A stretch of 5,522 nt of DNA. Origin: Spirochaeta sp. Its GTDB lineage: Bacteria > Spirochaetota > Spirochaetia > Spirochaetales_E > Spirochaetaceae_B. The position numbers and the translations under genes are program-made. The notes below the pieces were generated by a model. The model made no database searches. It was not told where the DNA came from and saw nothing but the letters and a program-made list of their open reading frames with translations. This document shows, one piece after another, positions 1 through 5,522 of the stretch (position 1 is the stretch's first letter; each line of letters opens with the position of its first letter). Location of the stretch: assembly GCA_030590585.1 (NCBI GenBank), contig JAUUYD010000182.1, forward strand, positions 1-5,522, read 5' to 3'.

Positions 1-321
1 AATCTCAGGTCTTAAGTGAGCGAGCGTTCTAATAATCTTTTCCAAAAACGAATTATCACTTTGATATGAACTCAATCCGGCAAGCAGGCGATTTACAATG
101 TCGGTTAAGTTTCTAACCCCCCAGAATCGGGTATATAAAAGATTACTTCCCGGGATTTCTCGAACAGCTTCAAAAACAAGGGAGGTTTTACCGGTACACC
201 GTTCTCCGATTAGAACCGTTTTGTACCCGGACTCGATATTCCTACGAAGATTTTTCAACTCAATGGGTCTATTACAGAAATCCGGGTATTTGGCTATTTC
301 TCCATAAATAAATGGATTCAT
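1..321 (-). CDS. AAA+ ATPase of the archaeal/bacterial ATPase_2-like family, N-terminal 107 residues (runs off the left edge)
   Basis: The minus strand stays open from an ATG at 321 to the window edge, giving 107 residues with no stop. The protein begins MNPFIYGEIA, and this MNPFxYG opening is typical of a family of stand-alone P-loop ATPases common in methanogens, spirochaetes and other anaerobes. A Walker A motif, GERCTGKTS, lies at residues 39-47, preceded by a hydrophobic strand (KTVLI). The Walker B and sensor regions and the C-terminal domain would lie beyond the edge. An in-frame ATG at 357 would add 12 residues, but MNPF is the usual family start; neither start has a good Shine-Dalgarno. 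Family members often have no known role, and nothing ties this one to B12. P-loop ATPase identity is fairly sure; function is unknown. Confidence 0.72.
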   Translation of the reverse strand, partial: MNPFIYGEIAKYPDFCNRPIELKNLRRNIESGYKTVLIGERCTGKTSLVFEAVREIPGSNLLYTRFWGVRNLTDIVNRLLAGLSSYQSDNSFLEKIIRTLAHLRPEI

Positions 322-484
322 ACAATAATGGGAGATGAGCCCGGATTCTTTGTGCATTTCGGTTCTTGTGTATGAAACCGGGTAGATCCCGGCTCTCAGG
401 AAATGGAATTCCGGATTGTTGAACATCACCCGGATTCATAATATCAGGGATGGTTTTTTTTATTAAACTCAGAATAATAACACT
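322..484. other. Divergent intergenic region between the AAA+ ATPase and the adenosyltransferase
   Basis: This 163-bp gap must hold the promoters of both outward-facing genes. A weak sigma70-like pair for the plus-strand gene is TTGTTG at 416-421 and TAATAT at 439-444, with a 17-bp spacer. The heptamer CCGGATT occurs three times in the same orientation, at 341-347, 411-417 and 430-436; the first and third are part of a longer shared CCCGGATTC. A run of eight T at 454-461 follows a poor imperfect stem (CAT-CCC at 424-431 with GGGATG at 447-452). No cobalamin riboswitch is visible here, unlike the minus-strand operon. The promoter calls are tentative. Confidence 0.4.
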
Positions 485-994
485 ATGACAGGATACCTTC
501 AGGTATATACCGGTAACGGAAAGGGAAAGTCCACCGCAGCATTCGGCCTGGCACTTAGAGCCAGGGGCGCAGGACTAAAGGTTCAAGTGATTCAATTCAT
601 TAAAAACAAAGCTTATCCGGAAATTGCCATACTTAATAATATTGGAGTGGAAGTCCATCAGTTCGGGCGGGGCTTGTTTTTCGGCCGTCCACCTGGAGAT
701 AAGGATTTTGCCGCTGCACGAGAAGGCTTGACTGCTGTTGAAAATACTTTTAATAGCACCACTACCGATGTACTGATTCTCGATGAAATTAATGTTGCTC
801 TGGGACTGGGGCTGGTAAATGAACAAGATTTTATAACCCTGCTGGACAAACGCCCTGCGGGTATGGAAGTCATCTGTACAGGCCGCCGGGCACCGGATTG
901 CTTACTGGAAATGGCAGACCTGGTAACCGAGATGCGGGCTGTGAAGCATTATTATCAAACTGGGGTTCCGGCAAGAAAGGGTATCGAGAAGTAA
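485..994 (+). CDS. cobO: Cob(I)yrinic acid a,c-diamide adenosyltransferase (CobA/CobO/BtuR family)
   Basis: This 169-residue cytoplasmic enzyme transfers the adenosyl group of ATP to the cobalt of a reduced corrinoid, making the coenzyme form. It has the family's P-loop TGNGKGKST at residues 9-17, a Walker B-like strand VLILDEI at 96-102, CTGRRAP at 131-137, and the diagnostic C-terminus with EMRAVKHYY at 149-157 followed by ARKGIE at 163-168. It is a little shorter than many relatives because it starts almost at the P-loop and lacks the N-terminal extension of enteric CobA. The ATG at 485 is the only sensible start: a TAA lies in frame at 464-466 with no other start codon between. There is no clear Shine-Dalgarno just upstream, so it may be weakly translated or leaderless. 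It faces away from the ABC operon and converges on it, yet acts on the same substrate class. btuR or cobA would be equally valid names. Confidence 0.93.
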   Translation: MTGYLQVYTGNGKGKSTAAFGLALRARGAGLKVQVIQFIKNKAYPEIAILNNIGVEVHQFGRGLFFGRPPGDKDFAAAREGLTAVENTFNSTTTDVLILDEINVALGLGLVNEQDFITLLDKRPAGMEVICTGRRAPDCLLEMADLVTEMRAVKHYYQTGVPARKGIEK

Positions 995-1025
995 CGACGT
1001 ATTCTTATCTCTTGATCATTCTGTT

Positions 1026-1790
1026 CTATAATGCTGAACAGTCAGGTATTACCATTTGACGCTTTCCCTTGAAATTGAAAAAAACTGTCTTCACTCCGAG
1101 CATCTTTTCCAGGGTATTTTCGGTAAGAGATTCATCTATTGGTCCTTCGGAGATCAGCTGGCCATCTTTCATTAACAGTGCTGAATCGCACCAGCTTAAA
1201 GCGGCATTAATATCATGCAAGGCAGCAATCACCAGAACACCGGTTTCACGAGCCCGAGTCTTTAGGGCGGTCATGAATGATATCTGAAATTTCAGATCCA
1301 GATTGTTCAGGGGTTCGTCGAGAAGCAGAAGAGGTGTATCCTGGGCAAAGGCCCGGGCTAGAACTGCTTTCTGGCGTTCACCCCCGCTCACATCTGAAAG
1401 TGATCGAAACGCCAGAGAACTAAGGCCGAAACGTTCAAGTACATCACTGACGATCCGGTGATCTTTCTCACGTTCTTTCCAACGAAACCAGGGTTTCCTT
1501 CCCAGAAGAACGTAGTCGTACAGTACCATGGCCGGATCGAACCTGGGGTGTTGAGGTACCAGGGCCCGATGTCGGGCCTGTTCCTCTTGAGGCCATTCAG
1601 ATATCGGTTTATTCTCCCAGGAGATACCCGGAATATCGTGCAAACCAGCCAGGCAGGAGAGCAGGGTGGATTTCCCCGAGCCGTTTTCTCCCATCAGAGC
1701 TACCAGGCGGCCTTTTCCACAGCTGAAAGAGAGGTTTTTAAGTATGGGTATTGTCCCGTAAGTGAAAGACAATTTCTCAACAGTAGTCAT
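1026..1790 (-). CDS. btuD: ABC transporter ATPase, BtuD/FecE type (corrinoid uptake)
   Basis: This 254-residue cytoplasmic ATPase should power the importer by dimerising on the permease. Visible motifs are Walker A GENGSGKST (34-42), Q-loop Q80 in LVPQ, signature SGGERQ (135-140), Walker B LLLLDE (154-159), D-loop LNNLD (161-165) and H-loop H192 in ALHD. Order, spacing and length fit the FecE/BtuD/HmuV class of metal-chelate and B12 importers. All catalytic residues are present, so it looks active. The ATG overlaps the permease stop as TGATG, and AGGAAGG lies about 7 nt upstream (1798-1804), so translation is probably coupled. It is the last gene of the operon and ends 31 bp from the convergent adenosyltransferase stop. 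The family is certain; corrinoid as substrate is inferred from the operon's riboswitch. Iron-siderophore or haem transporters look very similar. Confidence 0.93.
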   Translation of the reverse strand: MTTVEKLSFTYGTIPILKNLSFSCGKGRLVALMGENGSGKSTLLSCLAGLHDIPGISWENKPISEWPQEEQARHRALVPQHPRFDPAMVLYDYVLLGRKPWFRWKEREKDHRIVSDVLERFGLSSLAFRSLSDVSGGERQKAVLARAFAQDTPLLLLDEPLNNLDLKFQISFMTALKTRARETGVLVIAALHDINAALSWCDSALLMKDGQLISEGPIDESLTENTLEKMLGVKTVFFNFKGKRQMVIPDCSAL

Positions 1791-2845
1791 CAGAAAGCCT
1801 TCCTGACCTTTCGGCGGCTCATCAGGATGGATACCAGGAAAGGAACTCCGAGGAAGGATGTGATGATACCGATGGGCAGCTCAGTGTTTCCCAGCAGGGT
1901 TCGGGCCAGAGTGTCGGAAATCATAAGGAAAAACGCTCCTGTCAGTGCTGATGCCGGGAACAGCAGGCGGTGATCACTCCCCAAGAGCAGGCGCGCCATG
2001 TGAGGAGCTGCCAGACCGATAAAGCCTATCACTCCTGTGAAACTGACGATGATAGCGGTAACCAGGGTAACGGTGAGGATGATGGCGAAACGGATAGCTC
2101 GGGGATTTACACCCAGACTTCGAGCCTCGTCTTCTCCGGAAGAGAGTATATTCAGCTGCCAGGAGAGGGAGTATAAAACTGGTGCAGCCAACATGGAAAT
2201 TAGAGTCACAACAAGGGCTCGAGACCAGGTTGTGGAGCTCAGGGAACCCATGAGCCAGAAAACAATTTTAGCCAGCTGATCATGGGAAGCCAGGTACTGG
2301 AGTAAGGATGTGCCTGCCGAGAAAACATACATTACAGCAATGCCTGCAAGTATGAGCCCTTCAGCCCTCATTCGCCCCTTTCTGGCGAAAAACATTACCA
2401 ACATCAGTGATACCAGCGAAGCCGAAAACGCTGCTGGAATAATAAGAACCGGAACGTCAAGGATTATAGCCAGAGAAGCACCAAAGGCGCTGGCGGAAGA
2501 AATCCCCAATGTGTAGGGGCTCACAAGAGGGTTTCTCATAATGCCCTGCATGGCGGTTCCGCTCATGGACAGACTCATCCCGGCAAACAGTGCCATCACG
2601 ATACGAGGGAGGCGAATGTCCCAGACTACAGAAAAGGTACCCAGAGGAAGGGATTCGGGACGATACCCTGAAAGGCCCGCTTTCAGCGAATTCCAAACCT
2701 CTCCGATACTGAGATGGGCGGATCCGATGCCCACCGATATCAAAGCCAGCAGGGCAAGAACCAGAGCCGCCGTTATGAGAATAACTCGCCTAACCTGGTT
2801 CCGGCGTATCAGGGCCTTTTGGATATCAACGAGATGGATAGACAT
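1790..2845 (-). CDS. btuC: ABC transporter permease, BtuC/FecCD family (corrinoid uptake)
   Basis: This integral inner-membrane permease, 351 residues from the chosen start, belongs to the type II importer family, whose members usually have ten membrane helices. A basic N-terminus (RRNQVRR, 14-20) precedes the first hydrophobic helix at about 21-40. Family hallmarks are WDIRLPR (75-81), SGTAMQGIMRNPLVSPY (95-111), SGEDEARSLGVNP (236-248, the cytoplasmic coupling region facing the ATPase), GFIGLAAPHMAR (274-285) and ELPIGIITSFLGVPF (322-336). The reading frame is open up to an alternative start at 2914. The ATG at 2845 is preferred because it gives normal family length and overlaps the binding-protein gene by 20 nt; no strong Shine-Dalgarno marks it, so coupling from the upstream gene is likely. 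The ATGs at 2881 and 2914 would add 12 or 23 residues of poorly hydrophobic sequence. The substrate is inferred from context. Confidence 0.92.
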   Translation of the reverse strand: MSIHLVDIQKALIRRNQVRRVILITAALVLALLALISVGIGSAHLSIGEVWNSLKAGLSGYRPESLPLGTFSVVWDIRLPRIVMALFAGMSLSMSGTAMQGIMRNPLVSPYTLGISSASAFGASLAIILDVPVLIIPAAFSASLVSLMLVMFFARKGRMRAEGLILAGIAVMYVFSAGTSLLQYLASHDQLAKIVFWLMGSLSSTTWSRALVVTLISMLAAPVLYSLSWQLNILSSGEDEARSLGVNPRAIRFAIILTVTLVTAIIVSFTGVIGFIGLAAPHMARLLLGSDHRLLFPASALTGAFFLMISDTLARTLLGNTELPIGIITSFLGVPFLVSILMSRRKVRKAF

Positions 2846-3872
2846 ATGTTTCGCGTATTTTTTCCCACTCTTCCACCCCATAAAGAGAGCTGATGAGAGA
2901 TTTGCAAATATCATCAGGATCCATATTCAACTGATCGGGATAGAACAAGTCGGCGAAATAAGCGATGCCTGCCGGGTAGCGCAGGGAGATAAACAAGTCG
3001 GACTTGACGATGTACACACGTTCATCCCGAACAGCATCAACCGATTTCAGACTGGGACGATCGATAATTGTGAGCAGCATAGCCTCCATGGCCTTCATAT
3101 CGATATCACCGCTAACCCGCCGGATAATTACTTCAGGATTGGACATGGTGATGTACTCCGGGCTCAGGGCGGGATATTTCACAGGTTCGTCTGAAGCGAT
3201 GTTGTTTCCTCCGGCACTTCGGATAAAGAAGTCATGTCCGCTTAATGCCGATGCGCTCTTGTAGGGTTTACGGTTCTCAAAAAATACAACTGTTCGAATA
3301 TTCTCAGGTATTTCCAGGGCTTCCACAGAAGCTGTAACCTCCGTTAAAGCAGTATTTACCAGCTCCAGGATCTCCTCGGCTCTTTCCTCTTCCTGAAGAA
3401 CTCGTCCCAGGTTCCTCACCAGCATCGGCAGGTGCTCAGGATTACTGGTGGATTCGATAATTACCGAAATACCCCGGTTCTCAAGAATTTTGATTTTACC
3501 CTCATCGAACATGCTGTCGGCAATCACCAGGTCTGGTTCCATGGTCATGAGGGTCTCCATATTCGGACTGGAAGAGTTCTTACCCACTACTGGAACCCGA
3601 CGCATGGATGAAGGAAAGGTGCTGTAGCTGCAGCGGCCTACAACCCGGTCCGCAGCCCCCAGGGCCGCTACTACTTCTGAAAGACCGGAGTTCATACTGA
3701 CAAGTGTTGTGATTGGAAGCTTCACGACCACATTCCGTCCCAGGTAGTCGGTAATGGTAACAGTGGAAGGTTCAACCGCCGCCTGAGCAACTGAGGTTTC
3801 AGGAGTTCCAGCGGCCCAGGTACCGATTGCTGTAATCAGAAACAGAATAATCGTGAAGCTTTTTTTCATCAT
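2826..3872 (-). CDS. btuF: Periplasmic corrinoid/metal-chelate-binding protein, BtuF/FepB class III
   Basis: This 348-residue protein would bind the substrate outside the membrane and deliver it to the permease. It begins with a signal peptide: MMKK, a hydrophobic core at about 6-17 and a probable signal peptidase I site near TWA-AG (18-22). There is no cysteine at the cleavage site, so it should be soluble or held only by its signal. Family features are TITDYLGRNV (39-48), the helix-strand METLMTMEPDLVIAD (105-119), AGGNNIA (220-226), LSPEYITMSNPEVII (236-250) and the C-terminal RVYIVKSDLFISLRYPAG (285-302) followed by YFADLFYPD. The start overlaps the chelatase stop as TGATG. AGGGAG at 3877-3882 lies 4 nt from the first and 7 nt from the second of two consecutive ATGs (3872 or 3869). 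The fold is clear; whether it prefers cobalamin, a cobinamide-like precursor, haem or a siderophore cannot be read from sequence. Confidence 0.88.
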   Translation of the reverse strand: MMKKSFTIILFLITAIGTWAAGTPETSVAQAAVEPSTVTITDYLGRNVVVKLPITTLVSMNSGLSEVVAALGAADRVVGRCSYSTFPSSMRRVPVVGKNSSSPNMETLMTMEPDLVIADSMFDEGKIKILENRGISVIIESTSNPEHLPMLVRNLGRVLQEEERAEEILELVNTALTEVTASVEALEIPENIRTVVFFENRKPYKSASALSGHDFFIRSAGGNNIASDEPVKYPALSPEYITMSNPEVIIRRVSGDIDMKAMEAMLLTIIDRPSLKSVDAVRDERVYIVKSDLFISLRYPAGIAYFADLFYPDQLNMDPDDICKSLISSLYGVEEWEKIRETYVYPSR

Positions 3873-4747
3873 CAGGCTCCCTGGAATTGGGCCATTTGAC
3901 TGCGCATTTTTTGAATGTACATATTCTGGAAATCAGGCATACTGGCAAGGCCATCGGTTACAGTGGCTTCCAGGCCAAGCTGGCTTTTCAGGGAATCTTC
4001 CTCATCACCCATCACGTCATTGGACATATGGTCACCAAAAGTGAGCATGAAAGTGATGAACTTTATTATTGAGACACCGGATGAAAGTACCGCTTCACGA
4101 ACCGGCGGCCATTCAGGAGTTCCTTCCATCGTGACGAGGTAAGTGTTCTTGTAGTTCAACTGCAGATAATCGTTAATCTGTTCCAGTTCGCCGTTGTACT
4201 GCAGATGTTTTTCATTCCCATGGGCGCAGAAGATGGTAGCCGTATCGTCACTGTCGGCAATTTCATCTTCCAGGGCCAGAATGGAATTCTGCAGATTCTC
4301 AGGGTAATAAAGTGCGGAATGGACATATTTGACATTCAATCCGTTTGTTGGTGTCTTCATTACTTCTCGATATTCTTCTCCGGGCATGATGAGAAAATTC
4401 ACCGTTAGAACATCCTTGTAACCCTGATCTTTCAACCAGACAAAGGCCTCATCAATCTTCAACAGGGGTACTTCGGAGGAAAACATGGTTGTATTTCCCT
4501 GTTTCCGTAATTTATCGACGATAAAACTTGCCGTGAATCCCCAATATACTTCGTTATCGGGAAAAGCTGCCCGGACAGCTTTGTCGAAGTCATCAAGGTT
4601 CTTCTGACCCGTTTCATAACTGCTGCCGAAGGCCGCCACCAGAATGACAGGTTTTTCCGACACAATGGATTCGGGTGCCGAAGAACACGAGACGGTAATG
4701 AGAGCCGCGAGAAGGGCCAGCAGGCCCACGATACTGATTTTTTTCAT
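3872..4747 (-). CDS. cbiK: Exported lipoprotein sirohydrochlorin cobaltochelatase, CbiK family
   Basis: CbiK enzymes insert Co2+ into sirohydrochlorin in the anaerobic B12 pathway and are normally cytoplasmic. This 291-residue copy carries an export signal: MKK, a hydrophobic core at 6-19, then TVSC with Cys21 as the likely lipidation site and a short Ser/Ala/Pro linker. The catalytic domain (about 33-285) has AFGSSY (39-44), MPGEEY (121-126), CAHGN (174-178), TMEGTPEW (206-213) and FGDHMSNDVMGDEEDS (237-252). By alignment from memory with Salmonella CbiK, Glu125, His176 and His240 match its metal-binding Glu89, His145 and His207, so it looks catalytically competent. Salmonella His83 is Leu119 here. 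The start at 4747 has GGAGG 5 nt upstream and gives a proper signal peptide; a TTG at 4798 would add 17 residues inside the leader hairpins and is rejected. Desulfovibrio has a comparable periplasmic CbiK. The natural metal and tetrapyrrole remain uncertain; iron or haem handling is possible. Confidence 0.88.
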   Translation of the reverse strand: MKKISIVGLLALLAALITVSCSSAPESIVSEKPVILVAAFGSSYETGQKNLDDFDKAVRAAFPDNEVYWGFTASFIVDKLRKQGNTTMFSSEVPLLKIDEAFVWLKDQGYKDVLTVNFLIMPGEEYREVMKTPTNGLNVKYVHSALYYPENLQNSILALEDEIADSDDTATIFCAHGNEKHLQYNGELEQINDYLQLNYKNTYLVTMEGTPEWPPVREAVLSSGVSIIKFITFMLTFGDHMSNDVMGDEEDSLKSQLGLEATVTDGLASMPDFQNMYIQKMRSQMAQFQGA

Positions 4748-4752
4748 GATTC

Positions 4753-4774
4753 CCTCCAATGGAAACATTGGAGG
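4753..4774 (-). promoter_or_regulatory. Shine-Dalgarno-sequestering hairpin of cbiK
   Basis: In the mRNA, CCUCCAAUG and CAUUGGAGG form a perfect 9-bp stem around a 4-nt UUUC loop. The 3' arm contains GGAGG, the ribosome-binding site 5 nt before the cbiK ATG at 4747. Folding of this hairpin would hide the site, as expected for a riboswitch acting on translation. No U-tract follows, so it is not an intrinsic terminator. Confidence 0.78.
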
Positions 4775-4786
4775 AGATGAGTTGCT

Positions 4787-4821
4787 GCGGAATACCAACC
4801 CCGTGGAATACGGGATTCCGC
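4787..4821 (-). promoter_or_regulatory. Expression-platform hairpin 2 (switching stem)
   Basis: The mRNA segment GCGGAAU pairs perfectly with AUUCCGC (7 bp). Inside it, CCCGU pairs with ACGGG around an AUUCC loop, leaving GUUGGU bulged on the 3' side. The 3' arm overlaps a 9-nt segment (4783-4791) that is complementary to the 3' strand of riboswitch stem P1, so this hairpin and that alternative duplex cannot coexist. It has no U-tract. Confidence 0.6.
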
Positions 4822-4852
4822 GATAACACCTCTCTCCTCGAAGAGTGTTATC
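4822..4852 (-). promoter_or_regulatory. Expression-platform hairpin 1, with an anti-Shine-Dalgarno-arm loop
   Basis: GAUAACAC and GUGUUAUC form a perfect 8-bp stem directly after the aptamer and directly abutting hairpin 2. The 15-nt loop contains GAGGAGA (4833-4839), which is complementary to UCUCCUC (4771-4777) at the 5' arm of the SD-sequestering hairpin. A loop-to-arm contact could therefore open that hairpin. The stem is obvious by eye; the contact is inferred. Confidence 0.6.
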
Positions 4853-4861
4853 TGTTCATAG

Positions 4862-5029
4862 TCCGCAGCAGGTCTCCTGACTTATCGGCCTATGCTCTTC
4901 GCCTTCCCGCTCCTAAGAACAGTGGCATTGATGAAGAACACTCCCCGAATCACAGTGACGGGATCGTTCCGGGTTCTCACCGGATTCCCTCTTAGGCCCG
5001 CTCCCGAAAGGGTAGCGAGGCACTGCGGA
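4862..5029 (-). promoter_or_regulatory. Cobalamin riboswitch aptamer
   Basis: Read on the minus strand, the segment has the conserved cobalamin-aptamer core: GGGAAUCCGGUGAGAACCC, then GGAACGAUCCCGUCACUGUGA, the B12-box region with GCCACUG (4920-4926) followed by GCGGGAAGGC, and the closing AAGUCAGGAGACCUGC (4868-4883). Stem P1 is visible as UCCGCAG (5023-5029) pairing with CUGCGGA (4862-4868), which sets the limits of the element. It lies 115 nt upstream of the cbiK start and should repress the cbiK-btuFCD operon when cobalamin is plentiful. Which cobalamin form it senses cannot be read with confidence. Confidence 0.95.
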
Positions 5030-5047
5030 TGGACAGATTTCAAGATG

Positions 5048-5077
5048 ATATTAACATAAAAGAAAAATAACTGTCTA
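5048..5077 (-). promoter_or_regulatory. Possible sigma70-type promoter for the riboswitch operon
   Basis: TAGACA (5072-5077, 5 of 6 matches to the -35 consensus) and TAATAT (5048-5053, 4 of 6 matches to -10) are separated by 18 bp of very AT-rich DNA. The -35 box overlaps the cbiH stop codon TAG. Transcription would begin near 5040, just ahead of the aptamer. There is no terminator between cbiH and the riboswitch, so read-through from cbiH is also possible. AT-rich stretches give such matches by chance, so this call is tentative. Confidence 0.35.
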
Positions 5078-5522
5078 TCGATCTGTCCCGGTCCGGTATC
5101 CACGAGGAGTAATCATTCGGCCGCCGGAGGTGAAGGTCCGACTGTTGCCGATTACCACGGTGGTCTGCATATCCACCCAGGTATTGGCCTTCAGCTCCTC
5201 CAGAAGGATCACCTCGACGCGCTGCTCCTCCCGGTATGCGTTGCGTACCAGGCCCACCGGTGTCTGGGAGCTCCGGACTTCCAGGAACAACTCAGCGGCC
5301 TTTTCGAAAAGTCGCCGCCGCTTCATGCTGCGGGGATTGTAGAGAACTGTAACAAAATCCCCTTCGGCGGCCAGTCGGAGGCGCTTCTCGATCAGTTCGG
5401 TCTCGGTTAGAAGATCGCTTAAAGAAATGACGGCAAAATCGTGGATGAGGGGCGCGCCCAGCAGTGCGGCGCATGCGGTAGCCGAGGTAACTCCGGGCAG
5501 CACCAGGAGGTCGGTACACTCT
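5075..5522 (-). CDS. cbiH: Cobalt-precorrin-3B C17-methyltransferase (CbiH/CobJ), C-terminal 148 residues
   Basis: The frame is open from the right edge to a TAG at 5075 and gives the C-terminal 148 residues of a tetrapyrrole methylase. The enzyme uses S-adenosylmethionine to methylate C17 and drive ring contraction in corrin synthesis. Diagnostic blocks are VLPGVTSATACAALLGAPL (fragment residues 7-25), HDFAVISLSDLLT (27-39), GDFVTVLYNPRS (54-65), TPVGLVRNAYRE and, near the end, VVIGNSRTF and MITPRGY. Family members are usually about 240-260 residues, so roughly the first 100 lie beyond the edge. The name CbiH (anaerobic, cobalt-early) is chosen over CobJ because the neighbouring chelatase is of the CbiK type. 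The gene lies upstream of the riboswitch in the same direction and probably ends a separate biosynthetic transcription unit. No frameshift or damage is visible. Confidence 0.92.
   Translation of the reverse strand, partial: ECTDLLVLPGVTSATACAALLGAPLIHDFAVISLSDLLTETELIEKRLRLAAEGDFVTVLYNPRSMKRRRLFEKAAELFLEVRSSQTPVGLVRNAYREEQRVEVILLEELKANTWVDMQTTVVIGNSRTFTSGGRMITPRGYRTGTDR

Follow-up and report, generated by a model that had tools for sequence, protein, structure and literature searches.

A distinct clade of spirochaete CbiK relatives with lipoprotein signals, cobalamin riboswitches and neighbouring importer genes

Where would cobalt be inserted in a B12 producer whose CbiK-type chelatase carries an export signal? 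Metal insertion in B12 synthesis is generally held to be cytoplasmic, and the question is raised by a locus of Spirochaeta sp. (assembly GCA_030590585.1, contig JAUUYD010000182.1, positions 1 to 5,522), the whole 5,522-nucleotide stretch being called the window here. It encodes a CbiK-family protein behind a lipoprotein signal peptide, downstream of a cobalamin riboswitch and at the head of a run of ATP-binding cassette (ABC) importer genes, which the original prediction, made from the letters of the stretch, took for an exported cobaltochelatase. The reading I favour, at a probability of roughly 40%, is that the chelatase, once exported, puts metal into a tetrapyrrole outside the inner membrane, that the neighbouring importer takes up the product, and that both are induced when B12 is short. 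What computation supplies towards it is the export signal, the metal-site residues, the fold, the riboswitch, the gene order and the link to B12 synthesis. The features that carry it are:

3872..4747, minus strand: CbiK-family (PF06180) protein, predicted exported lipoprotein, 291 amino acids (Pfam, 126.7 bits against a gathering cut-off of 26.2)
4685..4747, minus strand: lipoprotein signal peptide, through Cys21 inclusive (conserved Cys column; sole ribosome site at the first start)
4752..4775, minus strand: hairpin with the ribosome-binding site GGAGGG (4757-4752) in its 3' arm, a likely platform for translation control
4850..5042, minus strand: cobalamin riboswitch aptamer, RF00174 (112.1 bits against a gathering score of 31.5, E 2.5e-28, full-length match, 1-189 of 189)

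The protein has the two-lobed chelatase fold of CbiK, and the metal-site residues Glu125, His176 and His240 on which the original prediction relied are present, corresponding by alignment count to residues 89, 145 and 207 of Salmonella CbiK (PDB 1qgo). They are nearly invariant: among 52 aligned sequences (the window protein and 51 of the 76 hits) both histidines occur in all 52 and the glutamate in 50. The Salmonella glutamate, Glu89, has a metal-site role. The Salmonella histidines, His145 and His207, are named active-site residues (PMC7689651). In the tree the window clade stands apart with support of 100/100; CbiKP of Desulfovibrio pairs with FetB of Porphyromonas outside it, weakly (83/52), and beyond the clade exported and cytoplasmic-looking CbiKs are interleaved. 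Because one tested defining feature fails for each, the protein is kept apart from CbiKP, IhtB and the curated cobaltochelatases and is placed in the CbiK fold family as a new clade.

Is the protein really exported? Judged by sequence pattern, the N-terminus carries the export signal MKKISIVGLLALLAALITVSC, and its lipobox Cys falls in a column that is Cys in 48 of the 52 aligned sequences. A motif loosely defining the lipobox matches 67 of 74 proteins, the fragments P0066 and P0077 having been dropped before the count; among the seven misses, P0014, P0022, P0049 and P0078 probably have shortened starts, P0007 has a plain signal peptide, P0056 a membrane helix, and P0029 a lipobox that the motif overlooked. 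The leader (4741-4852) folds much better than its shuffles (z -4.7), the same hairpin recurs on L001, the contig of the nearest relative (z -4.9), and GGAGGG sits in the 3' arm of this strong hairpin (4775-4752). By single minimum-energy folds of 51 bases, with no shuffles, the ribosome site is paired in eight of 10 clade leaders folded and unpaired in L107 and L110. Such a leader fits a riboswitch that would control translation at the signal peptide's own start codon, and since the ribosome site that it hides belongs to that start, export of the CbiK lipoprotein is very likely real. An exported lipoprotein and a cobalamin riboswitch upstream of it are thus two parts of the original prediction that hold.

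The rest of the window contains:

5075..5521, minus strand: cbiH (precorrin-3B C17-methyltransferase), 3' part (NCBIfam cobJ_cbiH, 183.7 bits for the portion in the window, short of the cut-off of 246.35)
2826..3872, minus strand: periplasmic substrate-binding protein (Peripla_BP_2), 348 amino acids (Pfam, 109.1 bits)
1790..2845, minus strand: FecCD/BtuC-type permease (Pfam FecCD, 298.3 bits; the start at 2845 is inferred, the longest frame opening at 2914)
1026..1790, minus strand: ABC transporter ATPase (Pfam ABC_tran, 100.7 bits)
485..994, plus strand: cobO/btuR corrinoid adenosyltransferase, convergent (Pfam, 199.5 bits; NCBIfam PRK05986, 187.2 bits, above the cut-off of 185)

On the minus strand the order is therefore the 3' part of cbiH, riboswitch, CbiK lipoprotein, binding protein, permease and ATPase. 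The CbiK stop overlaps the start of the binding-protein gene by one base, and the second and third as well as the third and fourth genes also overlap, so that the ends look as in a translationally coupled operon and the lipoprotein gene comes first in it, as had been proposed. The proposal that the chelatase is "fused" into the operon is right for a single run of overlapping genes and wrong for the proteins, a literal gene fusion being ruled out by separate genes with overlapping ends; likewise the span 2826..4747 does contain both of the open reading frames claimed for it, but these are the first two genes of the operon only. In the nearest relative (metagenome-assembled genome Spirochaeta sp. 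CSMAG_440, CbiK protein 92% identical), L001 carries cbiD (part), E, L, F, G and H in order, running directly into the riboswitch and lipoprotein gene, so the operon sits at the end of an anaerobic B12 cluster; the cbiH part of the window and the intact cbiH there share 95% identity. Elsewhere in the window, an open frame at 1-429 (minus strand) that matches nothing in Pfam contains the P-loop-like stretch GERCTGKTSL, and an Rfam mir-1992 match at 4149-4216 (plus strand; 19.8 bits against a cut-off of 70) was set aside as chance.

How general is the arrangement? The clade set comprises 10 genomes with a match of at least 50% identity, most of them drafts in many contigs, from searches of the order (26 genomes) and of the class (394 genomes drawn from a larger group); locus counts out of 11 add the window to the loci of these 10. 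Any match to the query at all occurred in 48 of the 394 class genomes and in 25 of 296 in a phylum search, and a family missing from the VIA-align lists was not taken as excluded. Immediately upstream, 10 of the 11 loci have a cobalamin-type riboswitch; in G309, the eleventh, the contig is cut there. Importer genes follow directly in 10, of which L001 is cut within the permease and L111 has a weak binding-protein match (22% identity); there are none at G339, where the riboswitch and lipoprotein CbiK are kept (L109, 7993-8856, plus strand), no importer genes were seen within 19.5 kb, and the locus adjoins a TrkH/TrkA potassium system. CbiD is encoded in all 10 genomes (represented in G001 by its end alone, at the edge of a contig). 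The cbi or cobO genes lie close by in five of the 11 loci (the window, L001, L052, L108 and L110), with cobO also near L107, and it is the cbi genes near L001, L052, L108 and L110 that bear out the suspected link to corrinoid metabolism. At L110, 2-3777 (minus strand; G333), next to the cbi cluster, are genes for a type III pantothenate kinase and for a vitamin-type energy-coupling factor transporter that includes a CbiQ-family part; this transporter could conceivably carry cobalt.

The original prediction had advised looking for a second, cytoplasmic CbiK or a CbiX. No second PF06180 protein was found in nine of the 10 clade genomes, mostly drafts, and in the 20 genomes of this set and the one described below, PF01903 matches occur in nine, every one of them inside a CbiK gene, so that no stand-alone CbiX was found by this search. 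CbiM is present in two clade genomes, G309 and G405; other cobalt transporters were not searched for. What is new is this distinct clade, with its riboswitch, importer and CbiD and, in nine of the 10 genomes, no second CbiK found. Eight stretches of viral contigs match a pattern, and none encodes a CbiK relative. No earlier description of a spirochaete lipoprotein CbiK was found in the literature searched, most subscription journals lying outside it.

The gene layout as such is already known from Desulfovibrio and Porphyromonas. In Desulfovibrio a single B12 element governs cbiK-cbiL and btuCDF (PMC545781), and a cobalamin riboswitch near cbiKP is reported for O. alaskensis, with D. vulgaris cited likewise (PMC11124144). 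CbiKP of Desulfovibrio vulgaris/Oleidesulfovibrio (PDB 2xvx, 2xvz) is accordingly like the window protein in its export signal, cobalamin riboswitch and linkage to a BtuCDF-type importer, and with these precedents the contrast formerly drawn with the periplasmic CbiK of Desulfovibrio falls. It differs in belonging to a separate clade and in sequence, the identity to the window protein being 28% in the structure alignment. The haem-ligand position of CbiKP, His96, is Arg127 in the window protein, and is Arg in 49 and His in one of the 52 aligned sequences. D. vulgaris also has a second, cytoplasmic CbiK, unlike nine of the 10 clade genomes as far as the searches go.

Besides Desulfovibrio, which the original prediction gave as the recognised exception, P. 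gingivalis provides a second precedent: IhtB is a CbiK-like lipoprotein that occurs with IhtA and IhtC-E (PMC10913741), and FetB is a Mn-porphyrin chelatase, the IhtB/FetB system being described for haem uptake (PMC13402209). IhtB/FetB (PDB 9b86) resembles the window system in combining such a lipoprotein with a binding protein, permease and ATPase, but differs in having a TonB receptor in the system and in falling in a separate clade, and the available parts of its descriptions mention no riboswitch. In the window it is the riboswitch and cbiH that precede CbiK, not a TonB receptor; no TonB-dependent receptor matched among the seven window proteins scanned, and one may lie elsewhere in the genome. 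Salmonella CbiK (PDB 1qgo, 2xwp) differs in having no signal peptide, its chain beginning at the FG-motif strand, and is 23% identical. BtuS1 and BtuS2 of Bacteroides fragilis are predicted exported relatives of a B12 chelatase tied to tetrapyrrole uptake, yet are of CobN and not CbiK type and have a haem-iron role; in the same species, disruption of a cbiK gene had no effect on haem iron use, according to unpublished data mentioned there (PMC6460266). The original prediction was to be given up if the arrangement proved common and already characterised; for the layout this is largely so, whereas no paper showing the function was found for this clade in the parts of the literature available.

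The importer was called corrinoid-type, which is right at superfamily level, but compared with E. coli BtuFCD all three components fall below the NCBIfam equivalog cut-offs: 46.9 against 234 bits for BtuF, 204.7 against 334 and 234.9 against 461 for BtuC, and 138.8 against 261 for BtuD. The binding protein (2826-3872, minus strand) has, by eye, a signal-peptide-like start without a lipobox Cys; its nearest folds are YiuA-type, haem-binding and BtuF proteins, and it has both conserved basic and conserved acidic residues.

Beyond the clade, a second set of 10 genomes was hand-picked from the stronger distant matches, the lipobox having been seen before picking for six and after picking for G564, G530, G349 and G336. 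Left out of the set counts were cytoplasmic-looking CbiKs (for example G174, G020, G166, G127, G032, G552, G343, G568 and G328) and exported or odd forms (G075, G078, G048, G315 and the long proteins of G248, G222, G267 and G150). All 10 genomes have CbiD and a lipobox on CbiK, and in nine a second PF06180 match was not found. A cobalamin-type riboswitch lies just upstream of CbiK in seven of the eight loci scanned for RNA families (L053, L054, L056, L057, L059, L112 and L113), and none was found just upstream in the eighth, L060. CbiM occurs in G213 and G304, and a binding protein directly follows CbiK in G213 and G312. TonB-dependent receptor genes lie close to the lipoprotein CbiK, in an Iht-like layout, at L056 (6808-8805, minus strand; G213) and L115 (10165-12144, minus strand; G336), the CbiK contigs of these genomes measuring 4.06 Mb and 4.65 Mb, respectively. 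For G336, a genome in one contig which has an exported CbiK and CbiD, profile searches returned no CbiX match, CbiM or Met8/CysG-type protein. In long open frames (390-860 residues) at L017, L018, L020 and L025, the CbiK-like part follows an N-terminal region unrelated to it. Since cytoplasmic-looking CbiKs also occur in the class, export is frequent but not universal.

What, then, might the exported protein do? On the favoured reading, a class II (CbiK-fold) metal chelatase would be exported and tethered by a lipid beyond the inner membrane. At low adenosylcobalamin, translation of the chelatase and of the co-transcribed importer would be freed by the riboswitch, if its effect has that sign. 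The lipoprotein would insert a metal, in all likelihood cobalt, into a tetrapyrrole resembling sirohydrochlorin, either the cell's own or scavenged, and the binding protein, permease and ATPase would carry the metallated product to the cytoplasmic cbi enzymes. I favour this because it accounts for control by B12, for the importer, for the conservation of the active site and for the fact that nine of the 10 carriers have no other CbiK or CbiX that could be found. A bolder form is doubtful: that in many spirochaetes sirohydrochlorin, their own or a neighbour's, captures cobalt outside the inner membrane, the lipoprotein CbiK loading it and a B12-type ABC importer bringing cobalt-sirohydrochlorin in, in place of a cytoplasmic CbiK or CbiX and a cobalt transporter.

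Several observations weigh against the favoured reading. An exporter for sirohydrochlorin is not known. Among folds, iron-type and haem proteins rank ahead of BtuF for the binding protein, and among its named NCBIfam matches a PGF-CTERM-anchored protein and the haem protein IsdE stand at the top, above BtuF. The window clade sits on a long branch apart from the known cobaltochelatases, and the window protein scores 81.2 bits against the equivalog cut-off of 400 for sirohydrochlorin cobaltochelatase (NF047852), as four other exported CbiKs also fall short (83, 101.4, 273 and 312.1 bits). With most clade genomes in many contigs, the absences are soft. To these must be added a second start codon in G333, taken up below, and the cytoplasmic enzymes that some carriers do possess: G300 has an ordinary cytoplasmic CbiK too, its gene lying near a cbi cluster and preceded by a riboswitch of its own, and a clear PF13241 protein (the family of Met8, the CysG N-terminus and SirC) was found in five of the 10 clade genomes, G309, G314, G300, G301 and G405.

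These enzymes favour the chief rival, somewhat unlikely and well suited to half of the genomes, in which the lipoprotein is a partner in salvage that, in the manner of IhtB/FetB, would bind, remove or exchange the metal of tetrapyrroles or corrinoids scavenged at the cell surface and pass these on to the importer, with a cytoplasmic Met8/CysG-type or unrecognised enzyme inserting cobalt de novo. The iht genes of P. gingivalis share the layout of lipoprotein, binding protein, permease and ATPase (PMC10913741), and the long stem branch suggests a changed function. In CysG, Asp104 is needed for chelation and is absent from the dehydrogenase-only SirC (PMC7018833); an Asp is kept at this position in G301 and G309, the two examined, so that their cytoplasm may hold its own cobalt inserter, although in G301 the loop after it is unlike the DAPK loop of CysG, which leaves chelation by that protein unsure. 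A cytoplasmic CysG-type enzyme may insert the cobalt of the pathway in half of the carriers. In three of them, G300, G301 and G314, the precorrin-2 dehydrogenase-type domain is fused to parts of glutamyl-tRNA reductase (L073, 289-1869, minus strand; L074, 1459-2943, plus strand; L075, 931-1860, minus strand), from which it seems that they probably make their own tetrapyrroles. Against salvage, no clear PF13241 protein was found in the other five genomes, G399 and G375 having nothing and G001, G339 and G333 weak matches only; the clade accompanies B12 synthesis, with CbiD throughout, which pure salvage does not need; and the metal-site residues are close to invariant. The six weak matches scanned do not stand as chelatases: those of G339, G001 and G333 are TrkA proteins, those of G336 and G349 short-chain dehydrogenases, and a neighbouring frame of G001 is a phosphoenolpyruvate-using enzyme without the PF13241 domain. 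Outside these six, further weak matches, likewise not counted, occur in G001 (a second, in a 286-residue frame, 22.4 bits) and in G312, G275, G075, G564 and G530.

It is distinctly unlikely that the CbiK fold has here become a non-catalytic surface receptor for corrinoids or cobalt-tetrapyrroles that works like BtuG of Bacteroides and feeds a BtuF-like protein. The divergence of the clade, its score below the NCBIfam equivalog cut-off, the B12 control and the importer neighbours would all suit such a receptor, but binding has no obvious need of the conserved His176, His240 and Glu125. A role in haem or iron uptake, iron being removed from or put into a porphyrin outside the cell before import, as proposed for IhtB, is very unlikely. 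The best PDB sequence match of the window protein is 9b86 (FetB, described as haem-binding), and the nearest folds of the binding protein are iron and haem binders; on the other side stand the cobalamin riboswitches, the cbi or cobO neighbours and the Arg at the haem-ligand position of CbiKP.

Least likely of all is that translation from an internal start gives a cytoplasmic CbiK, in addition to the lipoprotein or in its place, given that the window and L001 genes have a ribosome site before the first ATG only, that between the Cys and the FG motif six of the 11 clade genes lack any ATG, GTG or TTG while in the remaining five no such codon there has a ribosome site, that the site hidden in the leader serves the signal peptide, and that the lipobox motif is so widespread. 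In the window gene itself it is ruled out, its later starts having no ribosome site. In favour of it, the G333 gene of the window clade (L110, 10958-11830, plus strand) has a second ATG three codons ahead of the lipobox Cys, preceded by AGGAG at a distance of 5 bases; the public protein P0049 begins at this ATG. L050 has a weaker candidate (GTG with GGAGT), and in both a leaderless form is possible. In G336 (L115, 9238-10137, minus strand) and G349 (L114, near 9590-10453, plus strand), distant relatives without another chelatase found, an in-frame ATG beyond the lipobox has GGAGGAG some 11 bases in front of it and is possibly a second start for a cytoplasmic form.

If the exported CbiK is the only recognisable early cobaltochelatase of its host, then either an intermediate of the pathway crosses the membrane twice or another enzyme inserts the cobalt. 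In the latter case, predictions of the B12 pathway from genomes that accept CbiK as evidence enough for the step (as in the rule table of PMC6593275) would credit the wrong protein; in the former, this would be a new way of importing cobalt. The site of cobalt insertion in these B12 producers thus becomes a sharp and testable question.

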